Shown one piece after another: positions 28,716 through 44,578 of a stretch of DNA of 64,000 bases. The translations under genes were made by a program, and so were the position numbers. The stretch covers positions 1 to 64,000 of the forward strand of contig CAIJIT010000355.1 of assembly GCA_903820745.1 (NCBI GenBank). The letters are read 5' to 3'. The notes beneath the pieces were generated by a model. That model searched no databases and had not been told where the DNA came from. It saw only the letters and a program-made list of their open reading frames with translations. Source of the stretch: an uncultured Burkholderiales bacterium (lineage in GTDB: Bacteria; Pseudomonadota; Gammaproteobacteria; Burkholderiales; Burkholderiaceae_C). How positions within the stretch are numbered: the first letter of the stretch is position 1; the number at the start of each line of letters is the position of its first letter.

Positions 28716-28739
28716 TTTGAATCAAAAACCTGCCGTGCT

Positions 28740-29003
28740 GTTTGATGCGGCGGACTGTCGGCAGAGCAAGCGGCGAGCGACTTCGCTCATGTCCACCGAG
28801 CCGGTCTGCGCCTGGCTCTCCCCCTTTACTTCGCTGCGCCGCTCACCGCTTGCTCTGTGCGGGGCGATCGGGTTTGCCCCAAAACGCGGCCGTCATCGCA
28901 GTCCTTGATGCAACTGGCAGGATGGGAGTTCTGCGCAGTGAAGTAAAGAAGGAGGTGGCGCCCCGCAGGCTGGCGAAGGGTGACATGAACGCAGCAGAGC
29001 CCA
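28740..29003 (+). repeat. Structured repeat, copy 1 (left boundary of the 15.5-kb module)
   Basis: About 264 bp, nearly identical to 44278-44540 in the same orientation. Nested imperfect inverted repeats are visible: cagagcaagcggcgagcg (28762-28779) with cgctcaccgcttgctctg (28840-28857), and ctttacttcgctgcgc (28824-28839) with gcgcagtgaagtaaag (28933-28948). Open frames on both strands are conserved between copies but have repeat-like, low-quality protein sequence, so I do not call a gene. The 28625-29113 interval holds only this repeat and its deleted relative. Confidence 0.85.
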
Positions 29004-29113
29004 CTTTAAAGTCAAGGCTAACTGAGTATCCGACGGGCTTGGTATGGTCACGGCCTTTGCTCAACATTTCATTGCACGGAAACACCAGCGCAAATTACTC
29101 GAAAGTGCCGCTG

Positions 29114-29998
29114 TCAAGACATGGCCTTTCGGACGAAATTATGGACAGCAGGGTTTTCGTCATCACTGCGCCAAGCGCAGTGCAGCAATACGGTCCCCTT
29201 TTCACCTATGCCCGATACGGGTTTGTAGAGTAACTCGGGCCGCATACCCGAGACTGACTCCGGCACCAATGCTGCGCCGAGTCCGGCTTCGACCATCGCA
29301 AGCATGGTCGGCAGCACGCTCTCATGAACGATCCGTGGTCGAACGCGGCCCGAGGCGAAGATGCCTTCGAGGGTTTCGCGAAAGTAGCGTGAACCCGTGT
29401 TGGCGAAACCGATGAAAGGTAAACCTTCGAGGCGTTTGAGCGGCACCACTGAAAGTTGAGCCAAGGGATGGTTGCGAGGAATGACGAGCATCATCTTTTC
29501 TCGCGACACGACCAAGTGGCGCAACCCAGGTCCGAACATGGCCGACGACAAGCGCACCAGCGCCACATCGAGTTGGCGCGATCGCAATGCGCTCAGTAAC
29601 GGTCCCGACAACATTTCCTGAAGTTCCAGAATGACTTCCGGGTAATCGGCACGAAAACTCGCCACCGACTTCGGCAACATCCGATAGGTGGCGCTGTTGG
29701 TGAATCCCAAGACCAGTCGTCCGACTTCGCCTGAACCTGCGCGCATGACCGCGCGTTCGGCTGCTTCACCGTCGGCAAGAAGCTGCCTCGCATGATCGAG
29801 CAATGTGACGCCAGCCGCTGTCAACTGGACTGACCGTGTGGTTCGGATAAATAACGCTGTGCCTAGCGACGATTCGAGCTGGCGGATCTGCTGACTGAGC
29901 GGAGGTTGCGTCATATGAAGCCGTGCCGCAGCTGCGCCGAAATGCAACTCCTCCGCCACGGCAATGAACGATCTGAGAGCGCGCAGCGATAAAGTCAT
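29114..29998 (-). CDS. LysR-type transcriptional regulator
   Basis: The 294-aa protein has the LysR N-terminal helix-turn-helix (LRALRSFIAVAEELHFGAAA, then HMTQPPLSQQIRQLE) and a C-terminal periplasmic-binding-like inducer domain (about 90-290). The TQPPLSQQI form is typical of the catabolic CatR/BenM-like group. It is divergent from the amidase at 30091, separated by 92 bp; this arrangement predicts control of that operon. An atcc-N9-ggat inverted repeat at 30064-30080 lies next to the amidase start. A standard T-N11-A box is not clear. Confidence 0.93.
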   Translation of the reverse strand: MTLSLRALRSFIAVAEELHFGAAAARLHMTQPPLSQQIRQLESSLGTALFIRTTRSVQLTAAGVTLLDHARQLLADGEAAERAVMRAGSGEVGRLVLGFTNSATYRMLPKSVASFRADYPEVILELQEMLSGPLLSALRSRQLDVALVRLSSAMFGPGLRHLVVSREKMMLVIPRNHPLAQLSVVPLKRLEGLPFIGFANTGSRYFRETLEGIFASGRVRPRIVHESVLPTMLAMVEAGLGAALVPESVSGMRPELLYKPVSGIGEKGTVLLHCAWRSDDENPAVHNFVRKAMS

Positions 29999-30090
29999 TA
30001 GGTCAGTTTACGACTTAATCAAGATAAAAATAGTGCTAGACGGGCAAAAATCGTTCTCCTACCATCCGGATTCCTTGGATTGAAACGGGG

Positions 30091-31362
30091 ATGCGATTGA
30101 CTCAGTTCATTTCAGCGACGCCGCGACCTTCCGCATCGCAGAACGCGCAGCGTTGCCTGGGCCGGATCGCAGAGCGCGATGGAGCGCTCGGTGCATTTAC
30201 CTTCCATGATCCGGTGGAGGTTCTGCGCCAAGCGCGGGAGATCGATGCACAACCCGGCCCGCTCGCACTGCGCGGAATCCCGGTCGGCGTCAAGGATATA
30301 TTTGACACCGTCGACATGCCGACCGCGTACGGCTCATGGTTGTACCGCGACCATCGGCCGACGCGCGATGCCGAAGCGGTGAAACGGCTGCGATCAGCAG
30401 GAGCGCTGCTGATCGGCAAGACGCTCACCACCGAGTTTGCTTTTTCGCATCCAGGCCGCACGGTCAACCCCAGGCACCCATTGCACACGCCAGGCGGCTC
30501 CTCAAGCGGATCCGCAGCGGCAGTCGCCGATGGCATGGCAGATTTCGCGCTCGCATCGCAAACCGGCGGCTCAGCCATCCGACCGGCCGCCTATTGCGGA
30601 ATCGTCGGTATGAAGCCGACCCATGGCCTTATTCCCACGCAGGGCATGCGCGCGCTGGCGCCGACGATGGACACGGTCGGGCTGCATGCGCGCACGGTTG
30701 ACGACCTGCTGAGAGTGTGGCCGGTGCTGTCGGGGGTGCAGCCCAATTTCGAAGGCGGGCAAGTTCGCATCGCCTGCTTCCCAGGGCCCCATGCCGCCAG
30801 CGCCAGCGCCGAAGCCAAGCGGGCGCTGGAACTTGCAGGAGTCGCGTTGCGCGAAGCGGGACTGCCGGTCCAGCCATTCATGCCACCGATGGACGACTTC
30901 GCTGCTTTGAGCGACGCACAGAGGCTGGTCATGGCTCGCGAAGCCGCTTACGAGTTACGCGAAGAAGACCGATTGCATCGCCACTTGTTGAGCGCTGAGT
31001 TAGTCGCCTTGCTTGAGTTCGGCAAAAAGGTCAGCGATGTCGCTTATCAGCAGGCGCTCCGGTTAGCTGAGCTCTGGCGAACCGCGTTGTCTGGCATGCT
31101 CGATGCCAATGTTGTGTTGATGACGTTCAGCGCTCCGGGACAGGCGCCACTGCTGACCGAAGGTACCGGCAGTTCCGTATTCAACCGGTCATGGTCGCTG
31201 TTGGGGCTGCCCTGCCTGAGCCTTCCCTTCGGCCTGGGCGCTGCCCGGTTGCCACTGGGTATCCAGTTCGTCGGCGCCTTCGGTTGCGATGCAGTATTGC
31301 TGCGCGTCGCCGGCCCCGTCGAAAAGGCCTTCGGCGAATATCTTTCGAGGACAAGCGCATGA
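30091..31362 (+). CDS. Amidase (amidase signature family), first of two
   Basis: The 423-aa protein has the AS-family Ser-cisSer-Lys triad regions: Lys in IPVGVKDIFDT, cis-Ser in GGSSSGSAAAVADG and the nucleophile Ser in QTGGSAIRPAAYCG. At 423 aa it is shorter than the second amidase (474 aa), and the two are not close copies. It opens the module operon, and its stop overlaps the next gene (ATGA). It hydrolyses an unknown amide or half-amide. Confidence 0.92.
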   Translation: MRLTQFISATPRPSASQNAQRCLGRIAERDGALGAFTFHDPVEVLRQAREIDAQPGPLALRGIPVGVKDIFDTVDMPTAYGSWLYRDHRPTRDAEAVKRLRSAGALLIGKTLTTEFAFSHPGRTVNPRHPLHTPGGSSSGSAAAVADGMADFALASQTGGSAIRPAAYCGIVGMKPTHGLIPTQGMRALAPTMDTVGLHARTVDDLLRVWPVLSGVQPNFEGGQVRIACFPGPHAASASAEAKRALELAGVALREAGLPVQPFMPPMDDFAALSDAQRLVMAREAAYELREEDRLHRHLLSAELVALLEFGKKVSDVAYQQALRLAELWRTALSGMLDANVVLMTFSAPGQAPLLTEGTGSSVFNRSWSLLGLPCLSLPFGLGAARLPLGIQFVGAFGCDAVLLRVAGPVEKAFGEYLSRTSA

Positions 31363-32252
31363 AGCTGCCGCACCACGGTAGGTACGGGTATTCGCCGATC
31401 GTCGCGCGACCTCACTATGCCTGGCCCGAAGGCAAGCGCCTGGCCTTTTATATCGCCGTCAATATCGAACATTTTGCTTATGGCAGCGGGCTCGGCCATT
31501 CGATTTCGAGCGAACAGCCGCTGCCGGATTCGCGAACCCATGCCTGGCGAGACTACGGTAATCGTGTGGGCGTGTGGCGCCTTTATGAACTTCTGGATGA
31601 TCTGGGACTGCCTGCCTGCCATCTGATCAACACCACGGTGTTCGATCATTGCCCGGAAATCATCGCGCCGATCCTGTCTCGCGGCGATGAAATCATCGGC
31701 CATGGTCGCACCAATTCCGAACGTCAAGGTCATCTGTGGGAAGCGGACGAAGCACGTCTGATTGCCGAAGTACGAGACACCATCATCGAAAAAACCGGGC
31801 AACATCCGCGGGGTTGGATGGGCCCGTGGATGTCACAAAGCCGCGTCACGCCCGACCTGGTGCAGGAAGCGGGATTCCATTACCAGATGGACTGGCCCGG
31901 CGATGACCAGCCGATCTGGATGAAAACCCGTAGTGGAAGGATCATGTCGCTGCCGTACTCGTTCGAGATCAACGATTCGCCCCAATTGATCGTGCGCCAT
32001 CACACGGCCGAGGAATTCGCCGCCATGATCGTGCACCAGTTCGAGGAAATGCTGCTGCAGTCGCAAAAGCAGCCGCTAGTGCTGGGCATTGCGCTGCACA
32101 CCATGATCATGGGGCAACCGCACCGCATGCATGTGCTTCGCAAGGCACTGCGGCATATCGTCGGCCATGCGGAACGAGAAGCGGTCTGGTTCACGCGGCC
32201 GCGCGATATTCATGCGCACTGCCTCACCCTAGCTGAAGGCGTGATCCCATGA
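31359..32252 (+). CDS. Polysaccharide-deacetylase-fold hydrolase (PuuE-like), first paralog
   Basis: The protein of about 297 aa begins MKLPHHGRYGYSPI. The NodB barrel is recognisable by KRLAFYIAVNIEHFAYG (where classical deacetylases have TFDD), RGDEIIGHGRTNSERQ, PRGWMGPW and IALHTMIMGQP. The TFDD motif is replaced by VNIE, as in the PuuE allantoinase and cyclic-amide-hydrolase branch, so carbohydrate is an unlikely substrate. It overlaps the amidase stop by 4 bp and is followed 16 bp later by a paralog of similar length. Inference: ring opening of a cyclic amide or imide, or a related C-N bond reaction, feeding the amidases. Confidence 0.85.
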   Translation: MKLPHHGRYGYSPIVARPHYAWPEGKRLAFYIAVNIEHFAYGSGLGHSISSEQPLPDSRTHAWRDYGNRVGVWRLYELLDDLGLPACHLINTTVFDHCPEIIAPILSRGDEIIGHGRTNSERQGHLWEADEARLIAEVRDTIIEKTGQHPRGWMGPWMSQSRVTPDLVQEAGFHYQMDWPGDDQPIWMKTRSGRIMSLPYSFEINDSPQLIVRHHTAEEFAAMIVHQFEEMLLQSQKQPLVLGIALHTMIMGQPHRMHVLRKALRHIVGHAEREAVWFTRPRDIHAHCLTLAEGVIP

Positions 32253-32268
32253 GCCCAGGAAGCAAGCC

Positions 32269-33201
32269 ATGACTTTCAGCCCCCTGCCCCACCACGGCCG
32301 TTACCCCTACTCGAGCATCGACCAGCGCAAGGACTTCAGCTGGCCGGGCGGCAAACGGCTGGCCTTTTATGTTTGTTTCAATCTCGAATATTTCGCCTTC
32401 GGCGGTGGCCTGGGCTCGGATGTGGGCCTCGCCAATCCACCCCCCAACCACCGCAGTTATGCATGGCGCGATTACGGCAACCGCGTTGGTCTGTCGCGCA
32501 TGCTGGATCTGATGGACGAACTCGGACTGCCTGCGGCCCACAACACCAATTCATTTTTATACCAAGCCCATCCTGGCATGTTTGACCGCATCCGTGCCCG
32601 CGGTGACGAAATCATTGGCCACGGCCGCACCAATGCCGAGCGACAGTCGGGCATGTGGGAAGAAGATGAGGCCCGACTGATTGCCGAAGCCACTGCGACC
32701 TTGAGTCGCGAAGAGGGCAAGCCGCCGGGCGGATGGCTCGGTCCCTGGCTGGCCGAGACAGACCTCACGCCCGATCTGTTGAAAGAAGCTGGTTATCGCT
32801 ATCTGCTCGACTGGGCATCTGACGATCAACCGTTCTGGATGAGGACCCGCTCCGGACCGATTTTGTCCGTGCCCTATCCCATCGAGATCAATGATTCCCC
32901 CGCCGTCGTTTTCAGACATCACACCGCCCGTGAATTCGCCGACATGATCGTCGACCAATTCGAGGAAATGGTTGAACAGTGCGAGCGCATGCCCTTGGTC
33001 TGCCCGATCGCCCTGCATACCTTCGTGGTTGGCCAGCCGTTTCGACTGCGCGCACTGCGGCAGGCACTCAGGCATTGCCTGAACCATCCGCTCAGCGACC
33101 GAGTCTGGTTTACGCGCCCCGGAGAAATCGCCGACTACTGCTATGGCCTGCCCGCGGGCACCTTGAACGGCGGCATTCCAGGTCCGGAGGAAGTTGCATG
33201 A
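32269..33201 (+). CDS. Polysaccharide-deacetylase-fold hydrolase (PuuE-like), second paralog
   Basis: The 310-aa protein aligns with the gene before it along its whole length: LPHHGRYPYS, AWRDYGNRVG, RGDEIIGHGRTNAERQ, DDQPFWMRTRSG, EINDSP, RHHTAREFADMIVDQFEEM and VWFTRP recur in both. The N-terminal block has VCFNLEYF where the first paralog has AVNIEHF. Two similar subunits encoded side by side suggest a heteromeric enzyme or two ring-opening steps on related substrates. Its stop overlaps the AtzG-like start (ATGA). Confidence 0.85.
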   Translation: MTFSPLPHHGRYPYSSIDQRKDFSWPGGKRLAFYVCFNLEYFAFGGGLGSDVGLANPPPNHRSYAWRDYGNRVGLSRMLDLMDELGLPAAHNTNSFLYQAHPGMFDRIRARGDEIIGHGRTNAERQSGMWEEDEARLIAEATATLSREEGKPPGGWLGPWLAETDLTPDLLKEAGYRYLLDWASDDQPFWMRTRSGPILSVPYPIEINDSPAVVFRHHTAREFADMIVDQFEEMVEQCERMPLVCPIALHTFVVGQPFRLRALRQALRHCLNHPLSDRVWFTRPGEIADYCYGLPAGTLNGGIPGPEEVA

Positions 33202-33401
33202 CTAAATCCCGAATGGCGAGCGCAGCCATCGCAGCGCTGGAAGCAGCGCGGCAGGCTGAACTGGGCGACCTGCTTGACAGTTTCCCCGATGACGTGGCCG
33301 TGGCAGCGCACACGGCCGGGCAGTTGCGCGCCATCCTGAACTTGCCCGACGACCCGGCCACTGAGCCCTGGCCGCCGATGCGCATCAAAGCTTATCCATG
33401 A
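33198..33401 (+). CDS. AtzG/GatC-like small protein (67 aa)
   Basis: A tiny gene begins MTKSRMASAAIAALEAARQ, has one or two helices (HTAGQLRAILNLPDD) and ends ATEPWPPMRIKAYP. Its size, its position immediately before an amidase and the closing TEPWPP (compare the veP/EPAPVF endings of GatC and DUF4089) fit the AtzG/GatC group, which clamps and stabilises amidase partners such as AtzE and GatA. Its ATG overlaps the previous stop, and its TGA overlaps the next ATG, so translation of all three is coupled. Family assignment is by context and weak similarity. Confidence 0.6.
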   Translation: MTKSRMASAAIAALEAARQAELGDLLDSFPDDVAVAAHTAGQLRAILNLPDDPATEPWPPMRIKAYP

Positions 33402-34822
33402 TCGATCAGGGGTGGTTGAGCGCCACGGAGATTGCTTCAGCCTATGCGGTGCGCGCGTTGTCGCCGGTCGAGTTGGTGCAGGCGCTGATCGACCGCATCT
33501 CCGAACATGACCGTTCCCTGCATTCCTTTATAACTGTCGATGAGGAAGGATCACTCGACGCCGCGCGACAGGCCGACAAAGCCATCGCGGCCGGCCGACG
33601 ACTGAGCCCGCTGCACGGCATTCCGTTCGCGGTCAAGGACATCATCGATGTCGCGGGACAGCCCACAAGTTGCAACTCGCATGTTCGGGCCGGCCACAGC
33701 GCGCAGCGCGATGCGCCCGTGATTGCAAGGCTGCGCGCAGCCGGGGCGATTCTGCTGGGCAAGACGGCAATGCATGAATTCGCGATAGGCGGGCCGGCAT
33801 ACGACGTGCCGTTTCCGCCCTCCCGAAATCCCTGGAACCCGGCACACCATGCGGGCGGATCTTCATCGGGTTCGGGCGCTGCCTTGGCTGCTGGCTTGGT
33901 GCCGCTCGCACTCGGTACCGATACCGCCGGGTCGATCCGCAACCCAGCCAGCATGTGCGGGGTGGTCGGACTCAAGCCCACTTACGGCCTGGTGCCGCGC
34001 AGCGGCGTGTTTCCTCTGTCTTTCACGCTTGATCATGTGGGCCCGATGGCGCGCACCGTGACTGATGCTGCACTGATGCTGGACGCCCTGGCAGGACCGG
34101 GCGCGGGCGACCCCGGCGGCTTGCCAGTCGGTGCGGGCAGCTACTGCGTCGACCTTGAGCGCGGCGCCAAGGGCTTGCGCATCGGCTTTGTTCGGCACTT
34201 TCATGAAACCGATCTGGTCGCGAGTCCTGTGGTGGCGAGTGCGCTCAACGACATGGTGCGAGTACTGAGGCTGGAAGGCGCCCAGGTGATCGACATCGAG
34301 TTACCCGAACTGATTCGATTCGCTGCTGCGCAGCGCGTCATTTTTCACAGTGAATCCTGGGCAATCCATGGCAAGTGGCTGCGTGAACGGCCGGCTGACT
34401 ATTCGAGTATTTCGCGCCGCAAATTGCTGCCAGGGGCGTTTCTGTCGGCGGGTGACTATGTGCACGCGCAGCAATGCCGGTCAGGGTTGATCGATGCAGT
34501 CAATGCCGCATTCCATGATGTGGATGTCCTGCTGACCGTCAGCTCACTTGAACCAGCCTGCCGAATCGATGACGAAGCCGAATTCCTTCGCACCTATGCC
34601 AGGCAGGCTCGCAGCCCTTTCAACCTGACCGGCCATCCGGCAATCGCCCTGATGTGCGGACTGTCACCGGGCGGTCTGCCCCTGTCGGCGCAACTGGTCG
34701 GCAGACCCCGTGACGAGGTGACCCTCCTGCGTGCAGCGCGTGCCTACGAGCGCGCCACGGTCTGGCACAACACCAGGCCGCCGCTGAATCTGGGCAGTGT
34801 CCACGAAAAGGTTCGCACATGA
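33398..34822 (+). CDS. Amidase (AtzE/GatA-like), second of two
   Basis: The 474-aa amidase-signature enzyme has Lys in IPFAVKDIIDV, cis-Ser in GGSSSGSGAALAAG and the nucleophile in GTDTAGSIRNPASMCG. The GTDTxGSIR form is the GatA/AtzE branch. A 4-bp overlap with the 67-aa gene supports a two-subunit enzyme as in AtzE-AtzG (1-carboxybiuret hydrolase of the cyanurate pathway). The substrate here is unknown. Confidence 0.92.
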   Translation: MIDQGWLSATEIASAYAVRALSPVELVQALIDRISEHDRSLHSFITVDEEGSLDAARQADKAIAAGRRLSPLHGIPFAVKDIIDVAGQPTSCNSHVRAGHSAQRDAPVIARLRAAGAILLGKTAMHEFAIGGPAYDVPFPPSRNPWNPAHHAGGSSSGSGAALAAGLVPLALGTDTAGSIRNPASMCGVVGLKPTYGLVPRSGVFPLSFTLDHVGPMARTVTDAALMLDALAGPGAGDPGGLPVGAGSYCVDLERGAKGLRIGFVRHFHETDLVASPVVASALNDMVRVLRLEGAQVIDIELPELIRFAAAQRVIFHSESWAIHGKWLRERPADYSSISRRKLLPGAFLSAGDYVHAQQCRSGLIDAVNAAFHDVDVLLTVSSLEPACRIDDEAEFLRTYARQARSPFNLTGHPAIALMCGLSPGGLPLSAQLVGRPRDEVTLLRAARAYERATVWHNTRPPLNLGSVHEKVRT

Positions 34823-34866
34823 ATTTCTGCCATTTCCGACCGACTCAATCCAACAAAGGAGCTGCC

Positions 34867-35961
34867 ATGTCCATCGCCCTCAAGGCGCTTTACCGCCCCA
34901 TCACGGCTTTCACCATCGCTGCGGTCATTGTTGTGGTCAGCGGCGGAGCTGCGGCACAACCGAAGAAGCGCGAAATTCGTTTCGGTCTGCCTGTCAACGC
35001 CATCAATTCGGGCTACTGCATGTTCCCGACTGCGACGCGGCTTGGCTATTTCGAGGCCGAAGGCCTTGACGTCAAGATCAACAATATTGCGGGCAGCACC
35101 ACAGTCGTACAGACCGTTTCGTCAGGCCGCCTTGACATCGGCGCCGCGACACCCGAACCGGTCTTCAAGTCGTATTCACAGGGTGATCCGATCGTGCTGG
35201 TTTACAACTACATTCGAAAGCCCACGGGTAGCGTCGCAGTGCTGGCCGACAGCCCGATCAAGACATTGGCGGATCTGCGTGGTAAGCGGTTGGGGGCCGC
35301 CACGCTCGCGAGCGGCAACATCATGCTCACCAACGGCCTGCTGGCCAAAGTAAATATCGACGGCAAGAAGGAAATCACCTACCTGTCGGTCGGTGTCGGC
35401 GCCCAGGCTTTGCAGGCATTGCGTAGCGGTCATGCCGACGGCTTGGTGTTGTTCGATTCCCTGTATGCCCAGATCGAATCGCTGGGCGCGAAGATGCGCT
35501 ATATCTACGGCGAAGGCCAGGACAACCTGTTTTCCACCCAGTTCGTGGTGCGACGCGAGATGGTCGACAAAGAGCCCAACGTCGTCCGTGGTTTCGGCCG
35601 TGCCGTAGCAAAGGCGACCGCCTTTGCAAGAGACAACCCGGAAGCCTGCGTGCGCATGATGTGGCAAGAATTTCCGGCCAGCCGGATCGCCGGCATGCCT
35701 GAGGCTGAACAGCTCAAGAACGACGTGACCGTGCTGGTCAAGCGCATGGAGTTGCTGCTGCCGCCGGACGATGCAGGCAAAGGCTGGGGTTACTACGAGC
35801 CGGCGAGCATCGCCGCCTGGAACGAGTTCGCACTTGAAGGCGGAATTATCGACAAGAAGCTCGACAAGCTCGACGGCATCTACACCAACCAGTTCGTGTC
35901 CGACTTCAACCGGTTCGACCCCAAAGCCGTGGCCGACAAGGCCAGGAACTGGACCAAGTAA
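34867..35961 (+). CDS. ABC importer substrate-binding protein (SsuA/TauA/NMT1-like)
   Basis: The protein of about 364 aa has an export signal (LYRPITAFTIAAVIVVVSGG, cut after AAAQ) and the fold motif YCMFPTATRLGYFEAEGLDV with DIGAATPEP, typical of SsuA/THI5-like binding proteins for sulfonates, nitrate, pyrimidines or aromatic acids. ATG 34867 is chosen because AAAGGAG lies 6 nt upstream; an upstream ATG (34819) would place extra residues before the signal. Its ATPase and permease are encoded at 39283 and 40084, separated by two enzyme genes. Confidence 0.9.
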   Translation: MSIALKALYRPITAFTIAAVIVVVSGGAAAQPKKREIRFGLPVNAINSGYCMFPTATRLGYFEAEGLDVKINNIAGSTTVVQTVSSGRLDIGAATPEPVFKSYSQGDPIVLVYNYIRKPTGSVAVLADSPIKTLADLRGKRLGAATLASGNIMLTNGLLAKVNIDGKKEITYLSVGVGAQALQALRSGHADGLVLFDSLYAQIESLGAKMRYIYGEGQDNLFSTQFVVRREMVDKEPNVVRGFGRAVAKATAFARDNPEACVRMMWQEFPASRIAGMPEAEQLKNDVTVLVKRMELLLPPDDAGKGWGYYEPASIAAWNEFALEGGIIDKKLDKLDGIYTNQFVSDFNRFDPKAVADKARNWTK

Positions 35962-35976
35962 GGGAAAGGCACCGAC

Positions 35977-37083
35977 ATGCTGCATACGCCCATCTGTGAT
36001 CTGCTGGGAATCCAGTTGCCCATTCTTCAGGCCGGAATGGGTATTTACAAAGGAGTGGTGACAACGCCGGAGTTGGTCGCTGCGGTATCGAACGCGGGCG
36101 GCCTTGGCTGCTTGGGTGCCACCGGACTTGAACCCGACGAACTCTTGCAGGCTATTCGCACGATACGCAGGCTCACTGACAAGCCATTTGGTGTGGACCT
36201 GATCATTCCCCAGAAGCTTTCCATGCGCGAAGGAACCCGCGAGGAGATCCGGGCTGATATTCGCAAGAACTTTCCCGATCATTGGAAATTGGTCCAGGGA
36301 ATATTCGAATCGCAGGGCATCAAGCCGTCGGTTATTGACAAGGAATACAGCCTGACCGAGGAGATGACCGATGCTCAGACACAAATCATCTTCGAAGAAA
36401 AGGTCCCGGTGTTCGTGATTGCGTTGGGCGATCCGGCCAAGCTGATGGCTCGTGCCCGCGCCGCAGGCACCCTCGTCGCCGGACTGGCCGGCAGCTTGGG
36501 CAATGCGCGACGTCAGGTGGCTGCGGGCGTTGATTTCCTGATCGCGCAGGGCTCCGAGGCCGGAGGTCATGTGGGCGTGGTTCCGACGTTCCCGCTGTTA
36601 CCTCAAGTGGTCGATGTGTCGGGCGCCATCCCGGTCGTTGCAGCCGGTGGCATCGCAGACGGCCGGGGCATGGCCGCAGCCCTGGCGCTGGGCGCGCAAG
36701 CCGTCTGGTGCGGCACGGTTTTCCTGTTTGCTGAAGAAGCCAATGTGCATCCGATTCACCGTGAACAGATGGACAAGGGGCGTTCGGAGGATTTCATATC
36801 GAGCCGAACCTTCACCGGCAAAACGTCTCGCGTCTATCAGACCGAAATCCACAAGGTATGGGAAAGGTCGGGACTCGAGCCGCTGCAGATGCCGCATCAA
36901 AAGGTGTTGATGGAAGATTTCCTGGATGCGGCACGGGCGGCCGGGCGACTCGACGTCGTCAGCAGTCCCTGCGGCCAGGTGGCGGGTATGTTGAACGGCC
37001 GACGCCCCGCTGCGCAGATCGTGCATCAGATGGCAGCCGATGCCGAAACCGTGATTCGCAAGAACTACGCCTGCCTGGTTTGA
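35977..37083 (+). CDS. Nitronate monooxygenase/2-nitropropane dioxygenase family
   Basis: This 368-aa TIM-barrel flavoprotein starts ICDLLGIQLPILQAGM, followed by VSNAGGLGCLGA and the FMN/active-site segment IAQGSEAGGHVG, whose His is the catalytic base in nitronate monooxygenases. C-terminal PVVAAGGIADGRGMAAAL binds the FMN phosphate. Members oxidise nitronates or act as enoyl reductases. Placement between the importer's binding protein and a CoA ligase supports a step on the imported compound. Confidence 0.9.
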   Translation: MLHTPICDLLGIQLPILQAGMGIYKGVVTTPELVAAVSNAGGLGCLGATGLEPDELLQAIRTIRRLTDKPFGVDLIIPQKLSMREGTREEIRADIRKNFPDHWKLVQGIFESQGIKPSVIDKEYSLTEEMTDAQTQIIFEEKVPVFVIALGDPAKLMARARAAGTLVAGLAGSLGNARRQVAAGVDFLIAQGSEAGGHVGVVPTFPLLPQVVDVSGAIPVVAAGGIADGRGMAAALALGAQAVWCGTVFLFAEEANVHPIHREQMDKGRSEDFISSRTFTGKTSRVYQTEIHKVWERSGLEPLQMPHQKVLMEDFLDAARAAGRLDVVSSPCGQVAGMLNGRRPAAQIVHQMAADAETVIRKNYACLV

Positions 37084-37124
37084 ACAGGCGGTAAGAACAT
37101 GGCACAACATACACGGGGCGATCG

Positions 37125-39260
37125 ATGAACGAAGCGCAGGTGCTCGAAAAAAGCCGGAACAATCCGGGCGTGTTGTTTGATTTCGAGTCCGTGGTTATCG
37201 TGGGCGCGTCTGACGACCCGACCCGGATCGGTGGGGTGCCGATTTTTCTTTTAAAGAAATACGGTTACTCCGGTCGGGTCTATGGAATCAACCCCAAGCG
37301 CGACCTGGTCCAGGGCATACCTTGCTTCGCCGAGGTCAAGGACCTGCCGGAGCAGGTTGACGTTGCAATTTTTTGCGTCGCGGCCGAAAAAATTCGCACC
37401 CTGCTGCCCGAGTTAAAGGCCAAGGGGCTGAAGGGCGCCGTTATCTTCAGTGCAGGGTTCACTGAATCGGGCGAACAAGGCCTCGCGCTGCAAAACTGGT
37501 TGACCAGTTATGCGCGGCAGAACAGCATTGCCATCCTGGGCCCCAACTGCGTAGGCCAGATTTCATTTGCAACCGGGCGCTCATTGACATTCGCCAACGC
37601 GTTTCTGACCTTCCCGGTCACCCCTCCAGGGCGCGTCGCGCTGCTGAGCCAGAGTGGTGGCGTGGCCACCAATATCTGGGCCGATGCACTGATAGCGGGC
37701 ACTCGGTTTTCACATCTTGTCACGACCGGCAACGAAGCCGATCTGGGCTTTGCCGATTTTCTCGAATATCTTGCCGACGATGATCGCACCGATGTCGTGA
37801 TTGGCTACATCGAAGCATTGCAGGATGGCCCGGGTTTTTGCCGCGCGGCTGCCCGGCTGCGTGCAGTTGGCAAGCCGCTGGTACTGATCAAGGTCGGTAC
37901 TTCTGCTGCTGGCCGTGACGCCGTGTCATCGCATACCGGTCAACTCTCATCCGACGACTCGGCCTACCAGGCGGCGTTCGACCGCTATGGCGTGATCCGC
38001 GCCAGGACGCTCGAGGAACTCAACGATTTCGCTCGCGTGTTCTCGCTGGGCCGCATTCGACCCAAGATTACTGCTGCCACGACCTCGGGCGGTGCGGGAG
38101 TCTACGTTGCCGACCTGTGCGCTGATTTGGGCATCGAGATGAGCAATCTTTCGTTGGCGACCGAAACCAGCCTGTCGACCATCGTGCCGTCTTACGGTCG
38201 GGTCCGCAATCCGGTCGACTTGACAGCCCAGGTGGTCAACGACATCTCCATCCTCAGAGAGAGTCTTGAATTCCTGTTGAATGACCCGGAAACTGGCGTA
38301 CTGCTGTTCCTGCTCAGTGGCAAGGGCACGCTGGAACAGTCGACGGAAGTGATTGACGTCATGACCGATGTGCAGCGGCGAACCGACAAGAAGATCGTTT
38401 TGTGCTGGCTTGGCGTCAGCGACGATGTGCGACGGCGCGGCAGCGATGCCGGCTTGACCGTCTACCAGGATCCCGCGCGCTTTCTAAGGCCGCTCAAACG
38501 CTATTTGGACGCGACGCAAGCTGACTCGCCGCATACAGCAGAGGCCTTTGTAGCCTCGCCGGCGCAGACAGACCAACCTCCACCCGGCGGCCCGAACCTG
38601 ACAGGCGGCTTGGTCCTGGGACAGGATGGCCGCTGGGTTCTCCCTGAGCGTCAAAGTATGGAATGGCTGGAGCATTTCAATGTACCCTGCCCGCGCCGTT
38701 GGTACGCTCGCTCTGCCGCTGCCGTGGTCGAAATCGGCGCACAAGTGACATACCCCTGTGTGATGAAATTGGTCGAGCCCGTGGTCGCGCACAAGAGCGA
38801 TGTGGGCGGCGTGGTGGTCAATATCGCTTCTGCTCATGAGTTGTTGCAGGCCTGGCTGCTCATGTCCGAGAGCCTGCATGCAACCGAGGTGCTGGTGGCC
38901 GAGCAGATCGAGTCCGGCCTTGAGGTGATCGTCGGCTGCCTGCATGATGAGACTTTTGGTATGCGCCTGACTGTGGGCTCGGGCGGCGTCTGGACCAACT
39001 TCGTCAGCGACGCCATCACCTTGGTGCCGCCGTTCAGCGACGCCTATATCCGTTCGGAACTGCCACGTCTGGGTCTTTGGGGCCCGCTGAATGGTGCTCG
39101 CGGACAGCCGGCCTATGCAGTCGACGCACTCGTACGAACCATCGCAGACATTGCCCGCGCAGGCTGGGCAATGCGTGGTGACATCCGCGAATTTGAATGC
39201 AACCCCGTCATCGTGACTTCACACCGCGCGGTGGCGGTTGACGCCATCGGCTTTGTGTAG
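37125..39260 (+). CDS. ADP-forming acyl-CoA synthetase, fused subunits
   Basis: The 711-aa protein contains a CoA-binding Rossmann domain (VVIVGASDDPTRIGGVP near residue 22), two succinyl-CoA-synthetase-like flavodoxin domains, and a C-terminal ATP-grasp (about 500-700, with YPCVMKLVEPVVAHKSDVGGV). The phospho-His is seen in SSHTGQLS. The alpha and beta parts lie in one chain, as in bacterial acetate-CoA ligase (ADP-forming) and Pat-type proteins, but no GNAT domain is attached. It would activate a carboxylic acid to its CoA thioester, reversibly. An acyl-CoA dehydrogenase follows three genes later. Confidence 0.92.
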   Translation: MNEAQVLEKSRNNPGVLFDFESVVIVGASDDPTRIGGVPIFLLKKYGYSGRVYGINPKRDLVQGIPCFAEVKDLPEQVDVAIFCVAAEKIRTLLPELKAKGLKGAVIFSAGFTESGEQGLALQNWLTSYARQNSIAILGPNCVGQISFATGRSLTFANAFLTFPVTPPGRVALLSQSGGVATNIWADALIAGTRFSHLVTTGNEADLGFADFLEYLADDDRTDVVIGYIEALQDGPGFCRAAARLRAVGKPLVLIKVGTSAAGRDAVSSHTGQLSSDDSAYQAAFDRYGVIRARTLEELNDFARVFSLGRIRPKITAATTSGGAGVYVADLCADLGIEMSNLSLATETSLSTIVPSYGRVRNPVDLTAQVVNDISILRESLEFLLNDPETGVLLFLLSGKGTLEQSTEVIDVMTDVQRRTDKKIVLCWLGVSDDVRRRGSDAGLTVYQDPARFLRPLKRYLDATQADSPHTAEAFVASPAQTDQPPPGGPNLTGGLVLGQDGRWVLPERQSMEWLEHFNVPCPRRWYARSAAAVVEIGAQVTYPCVMKLVEPVVAHKSDVGGVVVNIASAHELLQAWLLMSESLHATEVLVAEQIESGLEVIVGCLHDETFGMRLTVGSGGVWTNFVSDAITLVPPFSDAYIRSELPRLGLWGPLNGARGQPAYAVDALVRTIADIARAGWAMRGDIREFECNPVIVTSHRAVAVDAIGFV

Positions 39261-39282
39261 ATCAAATCAAAAAGGAACGGCT

Positions 39283-40053
39283 TTGATTCCGGACATCATC
39301 GACATCCGAAACGCCTCCAAGCATTACGACACCGACTCCGGCTTCGTGCATGCCCTGGGCGAAACGACCGCGCGAATTGGTGAAGGGGCTTTCGTCTCCA
39401 TCGTAGGCCCTAGCGGCTGCGGCAAAACCACGCTGCTCAAGATGATCGGTGGCTTGATTCCTGCGTCAAATGGAGAAATCTTGATCCGCGGCACGCCGGT
39501 TACGAGCCCACGTGCCGATGTGGGTTTCGTCTTTCAGAATTCGGTCCTGCTGCCCTGGAAGACGACCCGGGAGAACGTGTTGCTGCCGATCGTCGTGCGC
39601 AAGAAATTGTCAGCCCAGGACATTGACCGGGCCGACGAGTTGCTCGACCTGGTGGGCCTGGGCAGCTTTGGCGACCGCTATCCGCACGAACTTTCGGGCG
39701 GCATGCAACAGCGCGCGTCGATTTGTCGCGCACTGATCCAAGATCCTGCTTGCCTGCTGATGGACGAACCTTTCGGAGCGCTCGATTCGCTGACGCGTGA
39801 AAACATGAACGTGTTTTTCAACGGCCTGTGGTTGAGCACCGGCAAGACGGTGGTGATGGTGACGCACAGCATTCAGGAGGCCGTCTTCATGTCAACGCGC
39901 GTGATCGTCATGAGCGAGCGGCCCGGGCGCATCGTCGACGACGTAGCCATTCCTTTCGAAGCCCAACGCTCGCCCGACATCATGGGCTCGGCTGCCTTCG
40001 GTGCAACTGCGGCGCGAATTCGTCACTACTTCACCAAAGCCAATCTCGACTGA
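39283..40053 (+). CDS. ABC importer ATPase (SsuB/TauB-like)
   Basis: The protein of about 256 aa has Walker A GPSGCGKTTLLKMIGG, Q-loop FQNSVLLPWKTT, signature LSGGMQQRASICRAL, Walker B CLLMDEPFGALDSLT and the switch His in VTHSIQEA. The LLPW and MDEPFGALD forms are those of sulfonate/nitrate/taurine importers. I chose TTG 39283 because AAAGGA lies 6 nt upstream; no suitable ATG is close. It is followed directly by its permease. Confidence 0.9.
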   Translation: MIPDIIDIRNASKHYDTDSGFVHALGETTARIGEGAFVSIVGPSGCGKTTLLKMIGGLIPASNGEILIRGTPVTSPRADVGFVFQNSVLLPWKTTRENVLLPIVVRKKLSAQDIDRADELLDLVGLGSFGDRYPHELSGGMQQRASICRALIQDPACLLMDEPFGALDSLTRENMNVFFNGLWLSTGKTVVMVTHSIQEAVFMSTRVIVMSERPGRIVDDVAIPFEAQRSPDIMGSAAFGATAARIRHYFTKANLD

Positions 40054-40083
40054 CCCAAGAAGGCTGACTTCAAGGAACTTGTG

Positions 40084-40905
40084 ATGAAATTAGCTGGCAA
40101 GCCCCTCTCTCCTGCCGACGTCAACGGCGCGAACCGCCGCATCCGGTTGGAAAACATCTTGGCTCCCTTGGTCATGCTGGTCTTGCTCTTGCTTGCATGG
40201 GAATACTTGCCTTTGCTGCTGGGTATCCGCCCGACGATCCTGCCGCAGTTCTCGAAAGTGGCCGCAGTGTTTGGCGATCCAGCAACCATTGGCCTGTACA
40301 TGAAGCATGGGCTTGTGACCTTGCAGGAAGCTGCAACCGGCTTGCTGATCGGCGGGTTGCTTGGTTTCGTCTTTGGCATTGTGCTGACCGAATCGAAGCT
40401 GCTGATGCGCAGCCTCTACCCCTATATCGTGGCCTTGCAATGCATGCCTAAAGTTGCGATCGCACCGCTTTTGGTGATCTGGTTCGGTTTCGGTATCACC
40501 TCCAAAGTGATCGTTGTGGGCTTGCTGTGTTTTTTCCCGGTGCTGGTCAACACTATTTCGGGGATCCGTGGCGTCAGCCGTGAACAACTTGAATTGTTTG
40601 CCGCAATTCGCGCATCGCGCCTAAAGACCCATCTCCATCTGCTGATTCCGGCCGCTCTGCCGAGCATTTTGACCGGGGTGGAACTGGCCGTCGTGGTCTC
40701 ACTGCTGGGCGCAATCGTCGGTGAGTTTGTCGGCGCGGAAGAGGGCTTGGGCGTGCTGCTGCTGCAGGCGCAGTTTCAGATGAGCATGTCTAGCGTGTTC
40801 GCGATTTTGCTGGTGCTGGCGCTGATGGGTGTGGTTTTCAATCTGGCAATACGCGCGGTGCGAAAGCGTTCGTTGTTCTGGATTGCTGGTGAAACGGGCA
40901 AATAG
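40084..40905 (+). CDS. ABC importer permease (SsuC/TauC-like)
   Basis: The protein of about 273 aa has six hydrophobic segments and the EAA-type coupling loop RGVSREQLELFAAIRASRLKTHLHLLIPAALPSI, which matches the SsuC/TauC branch. ATG 40084 is preferred over the GTG one codon earlier, with AAGGA 7 nt upstream. It completes the importer with the binding protein at 34867 and the ATPase just upstream. Confidence 0.9.
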   Translation: MKLAGKPLSPADVNGANRRIRLENILAPLVMLVLLLLAWEYLPLLLGIRPTILPQFSKVAAVFGDPATIGLYMKHGLVTLQEAATGLLIGGLLGFVFGIVLTESKLLMRSLYPYIVALQCMPKVAIAPLLVIWFGFGITSKVIVVGLLCFFPVLVNTISGIRGVSREQLELFAAIRASRLKTHLHLLIPAALPSILTGVELAVVVSLLGAIVGEFVGAEEGLGVLLLQAQFQMSMSSVFAILLVLALMGVVFNLAIRAVRKRSLFWIAGETGK

Positions 40906-40913
40906 GAGTTGCA

Positions 40914-42083
40914 ATGTACGAATTGACTGAAGACCAACGTGACCTGAAGCAAGCTGCCCGCAATTTCGGGCGAAAGGTGCTGGCGCCACGCGCCATGCAA
41001 ATCGAACAGTCAGGTGCGGATTTTCCGGCCGATGTTCTGATACAGATGGGGCAACTTGGCTTCCTGGGCTTGGATATTCCCCAAGCTTATGGCGGCCAAG
41101 GCTTCGATACGCTGACTTCTGCCGTCATCCTCGAGGAAATCTCAGGCGCCTGGTTTTCGGCGGCGAGCTACTGCATGACGCTGGCAACGGGTCCGATTAT
41201 TGTGGCGGGAACCAACGAACAAAAGCAGCGTATCTTGCCGGCCATTTGCCGTGGTGAACTGGTGACGGCATTTGCACTGACCGAGCCTGCCGGTGGCTCC
41301 GATGCCGCATCGATCCAGACTTTTGCGGCGCGTGACGGCGATGACTATGTCATCAACGGGACCAAATTCTTCATCACCAACGCCCACCGCGCAGACGTGA
41401 TGGTGGTGTTCGCTCGTACGGATAAATCCGCCATGCGCGGCGAAGGCATTTCCATTTTTCTGGTCGACAAAGGCACACCGGGCCTGGTCATCGGACAACG
41501 ATTTCGCACCATGGGGCATTCAGCCAACCCAATCTGGGAGGTCGTTTTCGACAACTGCCGGATACCTGCGGCCAACCTTCTGGGTGAGGAAGGTGCGGGC
41601 TTCAAATATCTTCAGAACGATTTCGCAAAGATCCGTGCGGTCTATGGCGCTCGCTGTGTCGGCGTGTCGCAGTGGGCGATGGACTATGCCCTGCGCTATG
41701 CCCAGGAACGGATCCAGTTCGGGCAGGCGGTGTCGTCGTTCCAGGGTGTGCGCTTCAAGGTGGCCGACATCATCACGAAGATCGAAGCTGCGCGCCAACT
41801 GTCCTACCGTGCGGCCGTGATCGCCGACCGCGGCGACGCGCAGGCGCCTGCGGCTGCTTCGATGGCCAAGCATTTCGCGTCCGACATATGTCTCGAAGCG
41901 ACTTCCGAAGCGATCCAGATCATGGGTGGCCACGGCTATACCGTCGATCATCCACTCGAACGCATGTTTCGGGAAGTCAAGCTGTTCCAGATCGGCGACG
42001 GTACCAGCGAGATGCTCCGCATCCTGATTTCGCGATTCGCGAATCGGTCGATCGCCGACGGGGGCTCGGCTCAGTTGGCTTGA
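40914..42083 (+). CDS. Acyl-CoA dehydrogenase
   Basis: The 389-aa FAD enzyme has FALTEPAGGSDAAS (flavin/substrate loop), YVINGTKFFITNA, the helix with YAQERIQFGQAVSSFQGV and HGYTVDHPLERMFRE. The catalytic base region is QIGDGTSEML where most have YEGTSEI; the Glu is replaced by Gly-Asp-Gly-Thr, as in the branch that places the base elsewhere or uses Asp. It lies 8 bp after the permease (GGAG before ATG). It would introduce a double bond in the CoA-activated product of the ligase at 37125. Confidence 0.92.
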   Translation: MYELTEDQRDLKQAARNFGRKVLAPRAMQIEQSGADFPADVLIQMGQLGFLGLDIPQAYGGQGFDTLTSAVILEEISGAWFSAASYCMTLATGPIIVAGTNEQKQRILPAICRGELVTAFALTEPAGGSDAASIQTFAARDGDDYVINGTKFFITNAHRADVMVVFARTDKSAMRGEGISIFLVDKGTPGLVIGQRFRTMGHSANPIWEVVFDNCRIPAANLLGEEGAGFKYLQNDFAKIRAVYGARCVGVSQWAMDYALRYAQERIQFGQAVSSFQGVRFKVADIITKIEAARQLSYRAAVIADRGDAQAPAAASMAKHFASDICLEATSEAIQIMGGHGYTVDHPLERMFREVKLFQIGDGTSEMLRILISRFANRSIADGGSAQLA

Positions 42084-42137
42084 TCCACCCATCCGGTTTT
42101 TTCCGGTCACGAAACTCTCATTCAAGGAGAAAGAAAG

Positions 42138-43034
42138 ATGTCGAAGTACGGCTACGGTGCCATAGACACGGTGGTGCATGTGTTCACACCCGAATCATTC
42201 GAGCGCGGCGAAATCACGACCGACGACAACTTCCGGGTGAAGACCCGATTGAACCCTGACGACCTGCGTGGGGTGTCGATTCCAGACTACATCAAAAAGA
42301 TGGATCGGGCAGGCATCGAGCGGTCATTCCTGATCGCCAATCGGAACGGCGATATGCGTGTCCGTTATTCGACCGAAACCCCCTATGAAGTCGTTTACGA
42401 CATCTGCAATAAGTACCCCGACCGCTTCTCGGGTCTGGCTGGCGTGGATCCAACGCGCGGAATGGCAGGACTTCGCGAACTTGAAAAAGCGGTCAAGGAA
42501 TACGGATTCGTGGGCGCGCACCTTTATCCACACTGGTTTGGCTTGGCACCCAACCATGCCAAGTACTACCCGTATTACGCCAAATGCTGCGAACTCGATA
42601 TTTCAATCATGATGCAGGTGGGCAATTGCCTGGTCTACAACAAGGATCGCCGTCTGCCCACGGTCGGACAACCGATCACGCTTGACCAGGTGGCGATCGA
42701 CTTTCCCGAACTCACCATCATCGGTATTCATGTCGGCTGGCCTTGGCACAACGAAATGATCGCAATGGCCTGGAAACACCCCAACATCTACATCGGCCTT
42801 GATGCGTACGCGCCCAAGCATTGGCCGGCCGAAATCGTTCACTACGCCAACACTTTCGGCCAGGACAAAGTCATTTTCGGGTCAGACTGGCCGGTCATCG
42901 ACCCCGAGCGCGCGATGTCCGAACTGGATATACATAATTTCAAACCTGAGTCACTGAAGAAAATCTTGCGCGACACCACCGTGCGCATCTTCAAACTCGA
43001 CGAAAGACTCGCGAAGAAGCGGGTGGCCGACTGA
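42138..43034 (+). CDS. Amidohydrolase-family protein with altered metal motif
   Basis: The 298-aa protein is an amidohydrolase_2-type TIM barrel: YGYGAIDTVVHVFTPESF at the N-terminus, IGIHVGWPWHNEM (strand-6 His) and FGSDWPVIDPE (strand-8 Asp). In relatives such as ACMS decarboxylase the first strand carries DxHxH. Here it reads DTVVH, so one metal-binding His is replaced by Val. Either the site binds metal differently or the reaction is non-hydrolytic (decarboxylase or hydratase). A strong AAGGAG site precedes the ATG. Confidence 0.85.
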   Translation: MSKYGYGAIDTVVHVFTPESFERGEITTDDNFRVKTRLNPDDLRGVSIPDYIKKMDRAGIERSFLIANRNGDMRVRYSTETPYEVVYDICNKYPDRFSGLAGVDPTRGMAGLRELEKAVKEYGFVGAHLYPHWFGLAPNHAKYYPYYAKCCELDISIMMQVGNCLVYNKDRRLPTVGQPITLDQVAIDFPELTIIGIHVGWPWHNEMIAMAWKHPNIYIGLDAYAPKHWPAEIVHYANTFGQDKVIFGSDWPVIDPERAMSELDIHNFKPESLKKILRDTTVRIFKLDERLAKKRVAD

Positions 43035-43036
43035 GC

Positions 43037-44224
43037 GTGCCACAGACTTCAGAAATTCAGGAATTGCCGGCGGTGGAGACTTTGCTGTTTTGCCCGTTGT
43101 CGCTGCGCGGCCTGCTGTTGCGCAATCGGGTGGTGGTGTCGCCGATGCTGACTTACCTTGCCTCGGCAGGCTTGCCAAGCGATGAACATCTGGTGCACTA
43201 CGGCCGGTTCGCGACTGGCGGCGCCGGACTGGTGTTTGTCGAGGCGACCAAAGTTGATCCTTGCGGTTGTTCCACCACCAAGGACCTTGGGCTCTGGAGC
43301 GATGCGTTTGTCGTACCGCTGGCCCGCATTGCACGGGTTATCCAAGCTGGCGGCGCGGCGGCAGGCATACAGATCGCGCATTCGGGTCGCAAGGCACGGC
43401 GGTCTTTGCCTTGGGAAGGCAACCAGCCCTTGGCTACCTGCCTGGGAGTCGAGCAGGATCAGGTTTGGACCCTGATCGGGCCGAGCGCCGTCGCCCATTC
43501 TCCGCAATGTGAAGTGCCTGTCGCTATGAGTGCCGCTGACATCAAGGCGCAAATCGAGGCCTGGGGAGCCGCTGCAGCCAGGGCAGATGCAGCCGGTTTC
43601 GATGTCCTTGAGATTCAGGCTGCGCATGGTTATCTGATCCACCAATTTCTTTCGCCAGTCGCCAACCAGCGTACTGATGGTTATGGTGGATCGCTCGATA
43701 ACCGTATGCGCTTCGCGGTTGACCTAGTCCGCAGGGTGCGCGAGTCGTGGCCCGCGAACAAACCGCTGTTCTTTCGACTGTCAGCAGTCGATGACATGGG
43801 CTGGACAATCGAAAACAGCGTTGTCCTTGCTGCCTTGCTGAAGACCCATGGCGTCGATGTTTTCGACTGCAGTTCTGGAGGTATTGCTGACCAGGTGACG
43901 GGAGCGGCACCAATCGCCTACGGCTATCAGGTTCCCTATGCCAAGCGCATCCGTGCGGGCGCCGGCGTCATGACGATGGCAGTCGGGATGATCATCCATG
44001 CGCGTCAGGCCGAAGAGATCCTTGCCGAAGGCTCTGCCGATCTTGTAGCGATCGGGCGAGAAATGCTGCACAACCCCAACTGGGCATTCAATGCAGCCGA
44101 GAAACTGGGCATTCCAGCCCCTTTTTCGCTACTTTCGCAGAACGCCGAGTTCTGGCTGAAAAAGCGCTCACGCGTCAAGGGAATCCAGAGTTCCACATCT
44201 CTTGGCGACACTGTACCCAGGTAG
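43037..44224 (+). CDS. Old yellow enzyme family NADH:flavin oxidoreductase
   Basis: This 395-aa FMN barrel has LRGLLLRNRVVVSPMLTYLA at the start, GIQIAHSGRKA (FMN/substrate His), the signature AAHGYLIHQFLSP and RTDGYGGSLDNR, and a C-terminal phosphate-binding region. It fits the thermophilic-like/YqjM group, reducing activated C=C bonds. It has no C-terminal Fe-S or second flavin domain, so it is not a 2,4-dienoyl-CoA reductase of the FadH type. GTG start at 43037, 2 bp after the amidohydrolase. Last gene of the module. Confidence 0.9.
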   Translation: MPQTSEIQELPAVETLLFCPLSLRGLLLRNRVVVSPMLTYLASAGLPSDEHLVHYGRFATGGAGLVFVEATKVDPCGCSTTKDLGLWSDAFVVPLARIARVIQAGGAAAGIQIAHSGRKARRSLPWEGNQPLATCLGVEQDQVWTLIGPSAVAHSPQCEVPVAMSAADIKAQIEAWGAAAARADAAGFDVLEIQAAHGYLIHQFLSPVANQRTDGYGGSLDNRMRFAVDLVRRVRESWPANKPLFFRLSAVDDMGWTIENSVVLAALLKTHGVDVFDCSSGGIADQVTGAAPIAYGYQVPYAKRIRAGAGVMTMAVGMIIHARQAEEILAEGSADLVAIGREMLHNPNWAFNAAEKLGIPAPFSLLSQNAEFWLKKRSRVKGIQSSTSLGDTVPR

Positions 44225-44277
44225 GAAGGCACCAATCCTGCATGGGTAGAGCTCAGTTCCCTGTCCTGTGCCATGCC

Positions 44278-44562
44278 GTTTGATGCGGTGGCTAGTCTGC
44301 AGAGCAAGCGGCGAGCGACTTCGCTCATGTCCGCTGAGCCGGTCTGCGCCCGGCTCTCCCCCTTTACTTCGCTGCGCCGCTCACCGCTTGCTCTGTGCGG
44401 ATCGATCGGGTTTGCCCCGAAACACGGCCGTCATCACGGTCATCGCTGCAACTGGCAGGATGGGTGTTCTGCGGAGTGAAGTAAAGAAGGAGACGGCGGC
44501 CGCAGGCCGGCGGTGGATGACATGAACGCAGCAGAGCACCCATCTTGCCAACGCCAAGCCGG
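44278..44562 (+). repeat. Structured repeat, copy 2 (right boundary of the 15.5-kb module)
   Basis: Direct copy of 28740-29003 with scattered substitutions. It extends further right than copy 1, through gcacccatcttgccaacgcc, the same end seen in the deleted copy at 28667-28715. The inverted-repeat pairs of copy 1 are kept. The 44225-44578 interval contains this repeat and about 50 bp of unassigned sequence after the flavin oxidoreductase; no gene is supported. Confidence 0.85.
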
Positions 44563-44578
44563 GTAGTACAAAAATCAA

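Follow-up and report, generated by a model that had tools for sequence, protein, structure and literature searches.

A conserved thirteen-gene operon with two PuuE-fold hydrolases: a candidate gene set for cyclic-imide use in a Burkholderiales bacterium

A thirteen-gene unit and its conservation

The window, a stretch of 64,000 nucleotides from an uncultured Burkholderiales bacterium (assembly GCA_903820745.1, contig CAIJIT010000355.1, positions 1 to 64,000), carries at 30091-44224 a run of 13 genes that stand head to tail on the + strand, with a largest gap of 54 bp and 4-bp overlaps at four junctions (Table 1). The run joins two amidases, two hydrolases of the PuuE fold, a 67-aa protein, an ATP-binding cassette (ABC) importer, two flavoenzymes, a CoA ligase, an acyl-CoA dehydrogenase and an amidohydrolase. 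We give about an even chance to the reading that through this operon a small cyclic imide, or a close N-heterocycle, is used completely, as a source of both nitrogen and carbon. Imides occur in drugs, in fungicides and in natural pigment breakdown, and to our knowledge bacterial cyclic-imide pathways are poorly tied to genes. Pfam matches and open reading frame coordinates bear out the gene set, place, strand and overlaps or short gaps that the original prediction, made from the letters of this DNA, had described. The divergent LysR-type gene upstream encodes the probable regulator of the operon, which would act as the sensor of the substrate. A sigma-70 scan of 28600-44700 gave a single promoter-like site, on the - strand, with 4.4 expected by chance.

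Table 1. Features of the operon and its borders, with the basis of each assignment (G950, a genome of the same genus; cut-offs are those of the named models).
Feature	Position	Strand	Basis
Flanking direct repeat, upstream copy, hairpin-rich	28731..29000	+	89% identical to 44269-44537
LysR-type regulator	29114..29998	-	Pfam PF03466/PF00126; beside the operon in G950 too
Ami1, amidase-signature enzyme	30091..31362	+	PF01425; nearest solved structure malonamidase E2, E=1.5e-63
PuuE1, PuuE/cyclic-imidase-fold hydrolase, PhyH-linked clade	31359..32252	+	PuuE allantoinase 3cl6, E=9.4e-26; tree
PuuE2, second PuuE-fold hydrolase, other clade	32269..33201	+	3cl6, E=1e-21; 55% identical to PuuE1
67-aa AtzG-like small protein	33198..33401	+	recurs before Ami2 relatives; no family match
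Ami2, AtzE/GatA-like amidase	33398..34822	+	PF01425; TIGR02715 313.5 bits, cut-off 425.75
ABC substrate-binding protein, NMT1/SsuA type	34819..35961	+	PF09084
FMN enzyme, nitronate monooxygenase/FabK family	35977..37083	+	PF03060; FabK model 233.6 bits, cut-off 453.1
ADP-forming acyl-CoA ligase (acetate--CoA ligase family)	37125..39260	+	PF13607, PF13549, PF13380
ABC ATPase, SsuB/TauB type	39238..40053	+	PF00005; start 39238 (TTG) or 39283
ABC permease, SsuC/TauC type	40081..40905	+	PF00528
Acyl-CoA dehydrogenase	40914..42083	+	PF00441, PF02771, PF02770
Amidohydro_2 protein without HxH motif	42138..43034	+	PF04909; alignment; relatives in acyl-CoA contexts
Old yellow enzyme family flavoprotein, putative ene-reductase	43037..44224	+	PF00724
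Flanking direct repeat, downstream copy	44269..44537	+	89% identical to 28731-29000

All 13 genes recur in G950, in identical order and with the same upstream neighbours. Across 29097-44423 the two genomes are 95.5% identical at the DNA level, and the aligned codons of the 13 operon genes hold neither a gap nor a stop. The ratio dN/dS lies between 0 and 0.152 in 12 of the 13 genes; that of the 67-aa gene is 0.56, on 8 changes only, and the amidohydrolase gene has collected 18 synonymous and no amino-acid changes. Because the same gene order is kept and the codons are constrained, the 13 genes are a real unit, more than a chance set. The G950 contig ends inside a repeat just past the last operon gene, and the MFS gene that follows stands on a separate contig starting with the same repeat, so that the downstream junction of operon and MFS gene is inferred in that genome.

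The search for the same gene order elsewhere, which the original prediction had suggested, thus recovered all 13 genes together in one sister genome and smaller portions of the set far more widely. Neither the samples of family, class and phylum nor 80 loci of named genomes yielded another complete operon, and a widespread operon is not supported by these samples. The CoA ligase had no match in 199 other genomes of the family (E<=1e-120), 368 of the class (E<=1e-130) or 397 of the phylum (E<=1e-110); the three samples overlap, only a few candidates were scored per genome, and the searches do not list G950 although it has the gene. Ami2 was matched in one other of the 397 genomes of the phylum sample (E<=1e-120) and, within the genus, in one of 17 other genomes (E<=1e-100).

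A plasmid of Comamonas endophytica carries what appears from its genes to be a parallel set of functions in which some enzymes are exchanged for non-homologous ones (NZ_CP106882, 362907-369830; L039). Like the window, this cluster has an amidohydrolase (57% identical), a CoA-ligase-type enzyme, an acyl-CoA dehydrogenase and two tandem PuuE genes, and its isochorismatase-family hydrolase is read as an amide hydrolase. In place of the ADP-forming ligase and the amidases of the window, the plasmid has an AMP-binding enzyme and the isochorismatase type, and its PuuE proteins, 34 and 37% identical to those of the window, stand on a distant branch of the tree. Since the two differently built assemblies join the same functions through different enzymes, we favour one pathway, for which this single case is the best evidence. 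It also bears on the view that the run consists of two adjacent units, one for scavenging amide or imide nitrogen (30091-34822) and the other, with the transporter, an unrelated unit of acyl-CoA enzymes and flavoenzymes (34819-44224). Relatives of the first five genes do lie in nitrogen contexts and amidohydrolase relatives in acyl-CoA contexts, and the nitronate monooxygenase and CoA ligase genes interrupt those of the transporter. We nevertheless consider such a division quite improbable: the Ami2 and binding-protein genes share a 4-bp overlap, the full block is kept in G950, and L039 unites both functional halves with other enzyme types.

Paired hydrolases, amidases and a small protein

The two proteins called PuuE-like in the original prediction are indeed homologous to PuuE allantoinase (PDB 3cl6) over most of their length, and with the E values of Table 1 they belong to the PuuE/polysaccharide-deacetylase-fold superfamily. 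As allantoinases, however, they fall short: against TIGR03212 PuuE1 scores 110.8 and PuuE2 94.3 bits, more than 300 bits under the cut-off of 424.6, and the operon holds no uric-acid gene. The metal site of the deacetylases is also lost. In our alignment with HpPgdA, whose numbers are chain numbers minus 33 in a register set by this analysis, Glu40 of the PuuE-like proteins falls at Asp12, Phe42 at Asp14, His118 at His86, Asn122 at His90 and His250 at His247. The zinc ligands of HpPgdA include Asp14 and His90, and PuuE is described as not binding the metal (excerpt of PMC3084791). Two of the three ligands are thus gone, with Phe for Asp14 and Asn for His90; His86 and His247 are kept. Among 128 aligned rows, Glu40 is found in 126, His118 in 127, Asn122 in 113 and His250 in all, and both PuuE1 and PuuE2 retain 50 of the 51 columns that are at least 90% conserved. 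Position 76, which is Trp in 125 of the 128 rows, is Ser in PuuE2 and may mark a different specificity.

These rows, namely 126 of the 128 called relatives after a length filter plus the two window proteins, were also placed in a tree; it was built by a quick method, has some long branches elsewhere and covers the loci with a called PuuE gene. PuuE1 groups with two Bordetella proteins (SH-aLRT 96) within a larger clade (98), most members of which adjoin a PhyH dioxygenase and an SDR gene, and PuuE2 falls into a separate clade of 48 rows (SH-aLRT 96). Neighbour genes were counted within 6 kb at 80 loci, 25 of the PuuE1 and 55 of the PuuE2 type; these are related loci rather than independent events, and 19 of the 25 PuuE1-type loci sit in one tight clade. 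PhyH accompanies 19 of the 25 PuuE1-type loci and none of the 55 PuuE2-type loci, and SDR genes 18 and 14, respectively. Conversely, a Bug-type binding protein is found at 1 of the 25 versus 35 of the 55 loci, and a second PuuE gene adjoins directly at 0 of 25 versus 11 of 55. Because both clades and neighbour genes differ, PuuE1 and PuuE2 were, as far as the tree can tell, recruited from two lineages; local duplication, considered as their origin, is rejected on account of the separate clades.

Several recurring arrangements were seen around PuuE relatives. An SDR-PhyH-PuuE run is found in Reyranella and its kin and at two Bordetella loci (L048, L068, L107 and others), and after the PuuE gene at loci of Neoroseomonas and Roseomonas (L094 and kin) come a second, very divergent gene of the PuuE fold and one for an HpcH/HpaI (CitE-like) protein. 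At L011, L012, L014, L015, L018 and L023 a protein of 136-157 aa adjoins PuuE and an amidase; that of L018 has no Pfam or NCBIfam match. Across 29 short loci from genomes of the family, an amidase gene directly adjoins PuuE in eight.

Malonamidase E2, the nearest solved structure to Ami1, is an enzyme of half-amides, and an Ami1 relative with 52% identity is part of a run at L126 that also has PuuE, PhyH and SDR; Ami1 is a probable half-amidase. Ami2 does not reach the AtzE family cut-off (Table 1). Its pairing with a small upstream gene recurs at four other loci (L063, L115, L117 and L125), where the Ami2 relatives are 54-60% identical, so that the conserved pair of small gene and AtzE-like amidase, the context expected of AtzG, is found in the window and at these four loci. 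The term AtzG-like, which the 67-aa protein had received in the original prediction, fits the place and length of the protein and its conserved C-terminal end (EPWPPM, with an E-WPPM end common to four aligned rows) and finds no backing in family models: there was no Pfam match at E<=10 and no NCBIfam match at E<=5. A PDB profile search at E<=10 matched no AtzG chain, the presence of such a chain in the library being unchecked. The predicted structure, modelled from 4 sequences, is all-helical (pLDDT 71.6, pTM 0.45) and has no Foldseek match.

The cyanuric acid operon AtzD-AtzG-AtzE-AtzH-AtzF of Pseudomonas sp. ADP likewise has a small non-catalytic gene directly before an AtzE-like amidase, and AtzE is insoluble without its non-catalytic partner AtzG (excerpt of PMC6219798). 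Because AtzG holds this role for AtzE, the 67-aa protein is by analogy a probable non-catalytic partner of Ami2. In contrast to the Atz operon, the 13 genes give no call for AtzD, AtzH or AtzF, the small protein is unrecognisable as AtzG by profile, and Ami2 stays under the AtzE cut-off. At two other loci, L034 and L037, proteins annotated as 'nuclear transport factor 2' (NTF2) adjoin PuuE. Since AtzH belongs to the NTF2 superfamily (excerpt of PMC6219798), a decarboxylating or amidase role similar to that of AtzH is possible for these neighbours.

A candidate imide pathway and its alternatives

The course that we propose is read from gene family and context throughout, around an observed core of gene content, order, conservation, selection, clades and recurring neighbours. 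The substrate would enter through the SsuABC-type ABC transporter, and a C=C bond of its ring would be reduced by the old yellow enzyme, perhaps together with the flavoenzyme of the FabK/nitronate monooxygenase type. PuuE1 and PuuE2 would then open the imide hydrolytically; they may differ in substrate, acting on regio-isomers, stereo-isomers or two successive rings. Ammonia would be freed from the resulting half-amides by Ami1 and by a complex of the AtzG-like protein with Ami2. The dicarboxylate would next be activated by the ADP-forming CoA ligase and undergo alpha,beta-dehydrogenation by the acyl-CoA dehydrogenase, and the amidohydrolase would hydrate or hydrolyse the CoA intermediate before it passes into general beta-oxidation.

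For the CoA half, seven plasmid loci with amidohydrolase relatives (37-57% identical) were read out of 281 matching plasmid records. Five of the seven have an acyl-CoA dehydrogenase nearby (L039, L041, L129, L130 and L131), and five an adenylate-forming enzyme or a CoA transferase (L039-L042 and L129). Metal-dependent Amidohydro_2 hydrolases are typified by an HxH motif at the first strand; the window protein lacks it, reading VVH at a position where four relatives read VVN. It probably acts on a CoA ester, or on a product not far removed from one.

The closest described parallel to this scheme is the nicotinate route encoded by hxn in Aspergillus nidulans, with HxnT (an old yellow enzyme), HxnW, HxnM and the amidase HxnN (excerpt of PMC9304392). 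In this co-regulated set the old yellow enzyme is followed by HxnW, a dehydrogenase, and then by ring hydrolysis and deamidation; the cyclic imide hydrolase, HxnM, has kinship to PuuE and HpPgdA (same excerpt). Both systems unite an old yellow enzyme, a hydrolase of PuuE kinship (a cyclic imide hydrolase in hxn) and an amidase in one unit, in the operon by gene family only. Unlike hxn, the operon is bacterial and has two imidase-like genes, an AtzG-like partner, an ABC importer, a CoA ligase and an acyl-CoA dehydrogenase, and no hydroxylase of the HxnS, HxnX or HxnV type and no HxnW-type dehydrogenase was found in the 13 genes and annotated flanks, the genome being otherwise unsearched. The statement of the original prediction that no described pathway has this exact set is upheld by the literature searched, in which no paper on the gene set was found (subscription journals were mostly outside coverage), yet with hxn a near parallel exists (excerpt of PMC9304392).

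The same parallel lends some weight to an N-heteroaromatic route, for a pyridine or an indole-like compound, in which the first oxidation would be encoded elsewhere and the operon would be the reduced half. PuuE relatives with Mo-hydroxylase genes and an amidase nearby are indeed found at L033 and L063, where PuuE2 gives the best tblastn match. These two, however, form a clade (96) with L082, which also has Mo-hydroxylase genes, and L090, which has CoxG, and neither PuuE of the window belongs to it; neither the operon genes nor the annotated flanking genes include a ring hydroxylase. To this route we give little credence.

Neighbour contexts of the relatives favour an imide substrate, and several results have to be set against it. 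Genes for amide hydrolases, sought with amidase, asparaginase and isochorismatase as the only three seed types, lie within 6 kb at only 1 of the 25 PuuE1-type and 11 of the 55 PuuE2-type loci, several of the 80 loci being short. A search of the own genome for PhyH relatives at E<=1e-5, run without positive control, had no match, so that the operon probably reaches the imide by another route than the PuuE1 relatives do. In the old yellow enzyme, Leu and Gln occupy the positions of the Cys and His of L114, the closest relative fetched, which makes ene-reduction by this enzyme uncertain. Old yellow enzymes of the YqjM/XenA type carry a Cys in the N-terminal region and paired active-site residues; the window protein is not typical of them and scores 326.5 bits against the NamA model (cut-off 431), and among the farther relatives L128 has only the His and L042 neither residue. 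Furthermore, of the NCBIfam models listed, for some proteins the best 25, none exceeds its cut-off for any operon protein. The exact functions allantoinase, AtzE, FabK, NamA and 4-hydroxybutyrate--CoA ligase were tried and rejected, with scores well under their cut-offs. Finally, because a dihydropyrimidinase, an N-carbamoyl-amino-acid hydrolase or a dihydroorotase lies within ~10 kb of the PuuE relatives at L034, L035 and L037, hydantoins, ureides or pyrimidines are other possible substrates.

This last point leads to the view that the substrate is a cyclic ureide (a hydantoin, a dihydropyrimidine or an allantoin-like compound), opened by the PuuE fold and then cut by the amidases as a ureido or carbamoyl acid, in the manner of AtzEG. 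It would agree with the hydA, N-carbamoyl-amino-acid hydrolase and hydantoinase A/B genes near the PuuE relative of L034, with the dihydropyrimidinase near that of L037 and with the action of AtzE and AtzG on 1-carboxybiuret (excerpt of PMC6219798). Among the operon genes, by contrast, there is no call for a dihydropyrimidinase, a beta-ureidopropionase or an allophanate hydrolase, and the wide miss of the allantoinase model speaks against it as well; we regard a ureide as unlikely.

Turning back to the imide, the step order of the original prediction stands up chemically and fits the contexts of the relatives, and within its guess of a cyclic amide, imide or N-heterocycle these contexts favour the imide; every step is putative, as no listed function model scores over its cut-off. 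More tentatively, at a level that we would still call doubtful, the operon could encode an undescribed bacterial reductive-hydrolytic pathway for a maleimide- or glutaconimide-type ring, with PuuE-fold hydrolases of two lineages, two amidases, CoA thioesters and an amidohydrolase without HxH. In such a pathway PuuE1 and PuuE2 would each take one of two isomers or one of two rings, or would form a single mixed enzyme. That the natural substrates are maleimides of haem or chlorophyll breakdown is a guess; a literature search at the level of titles and abstract starts found no bacterial gene set for maleimides, and the haem/bilin origin gained nothing from it. If the imide reading is true, the operon would be a complete gene set for cyclic-imide use, and it would suggest candidate functions for the SDR-PhyH-PuuE run, the pair of AtzG-like protein and Ami2, and the HxH-less amidohydrolases of acyl-CoA clusters.

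Genomic site and neighbouring genes

LysR and the operon are bracketed by two direct repeats of 270 bp. The own genome, in whose assembly a search found no 16S gene, has 15 repeat matches, of which only the two flanking copies are full length or nearly so, the others being short dispersed pieces. Each flanking copy folds into one long hairpin by prediction, without shuffle control. G950 has several repeat copies on both sides of its operon, and another genome, G948, has one near-full copy with a transposase gene beyond it. The edge genes at 26050-28624 (BlaC-like and MFS) and 44579-45994 (MFS) have relatives with 58-65% identity in G947, between which a different cargo of ~8 kb is found (radical SAM, sulfatase and nitroreductase). 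Because G947 carries other cargo between relatives of the edge genes, the site of the operon is variable among congeners.

Farther downstream, at 48429-58816, lies a separate beta-oxidation cluster with a GMC oxidoreductase, a FadB-like protein, a thiolase, a CoA transferase III and DUF1214/1254 proteins, together with a double-length acyl-CoA dehydrogenase of 799 aa whose domain matches fall in two stretches. Between this cluster and the operon, 45948-47075 encodes a protein of 375 aa that has no Pfam match and a dN/dS of 0.09 against G950.

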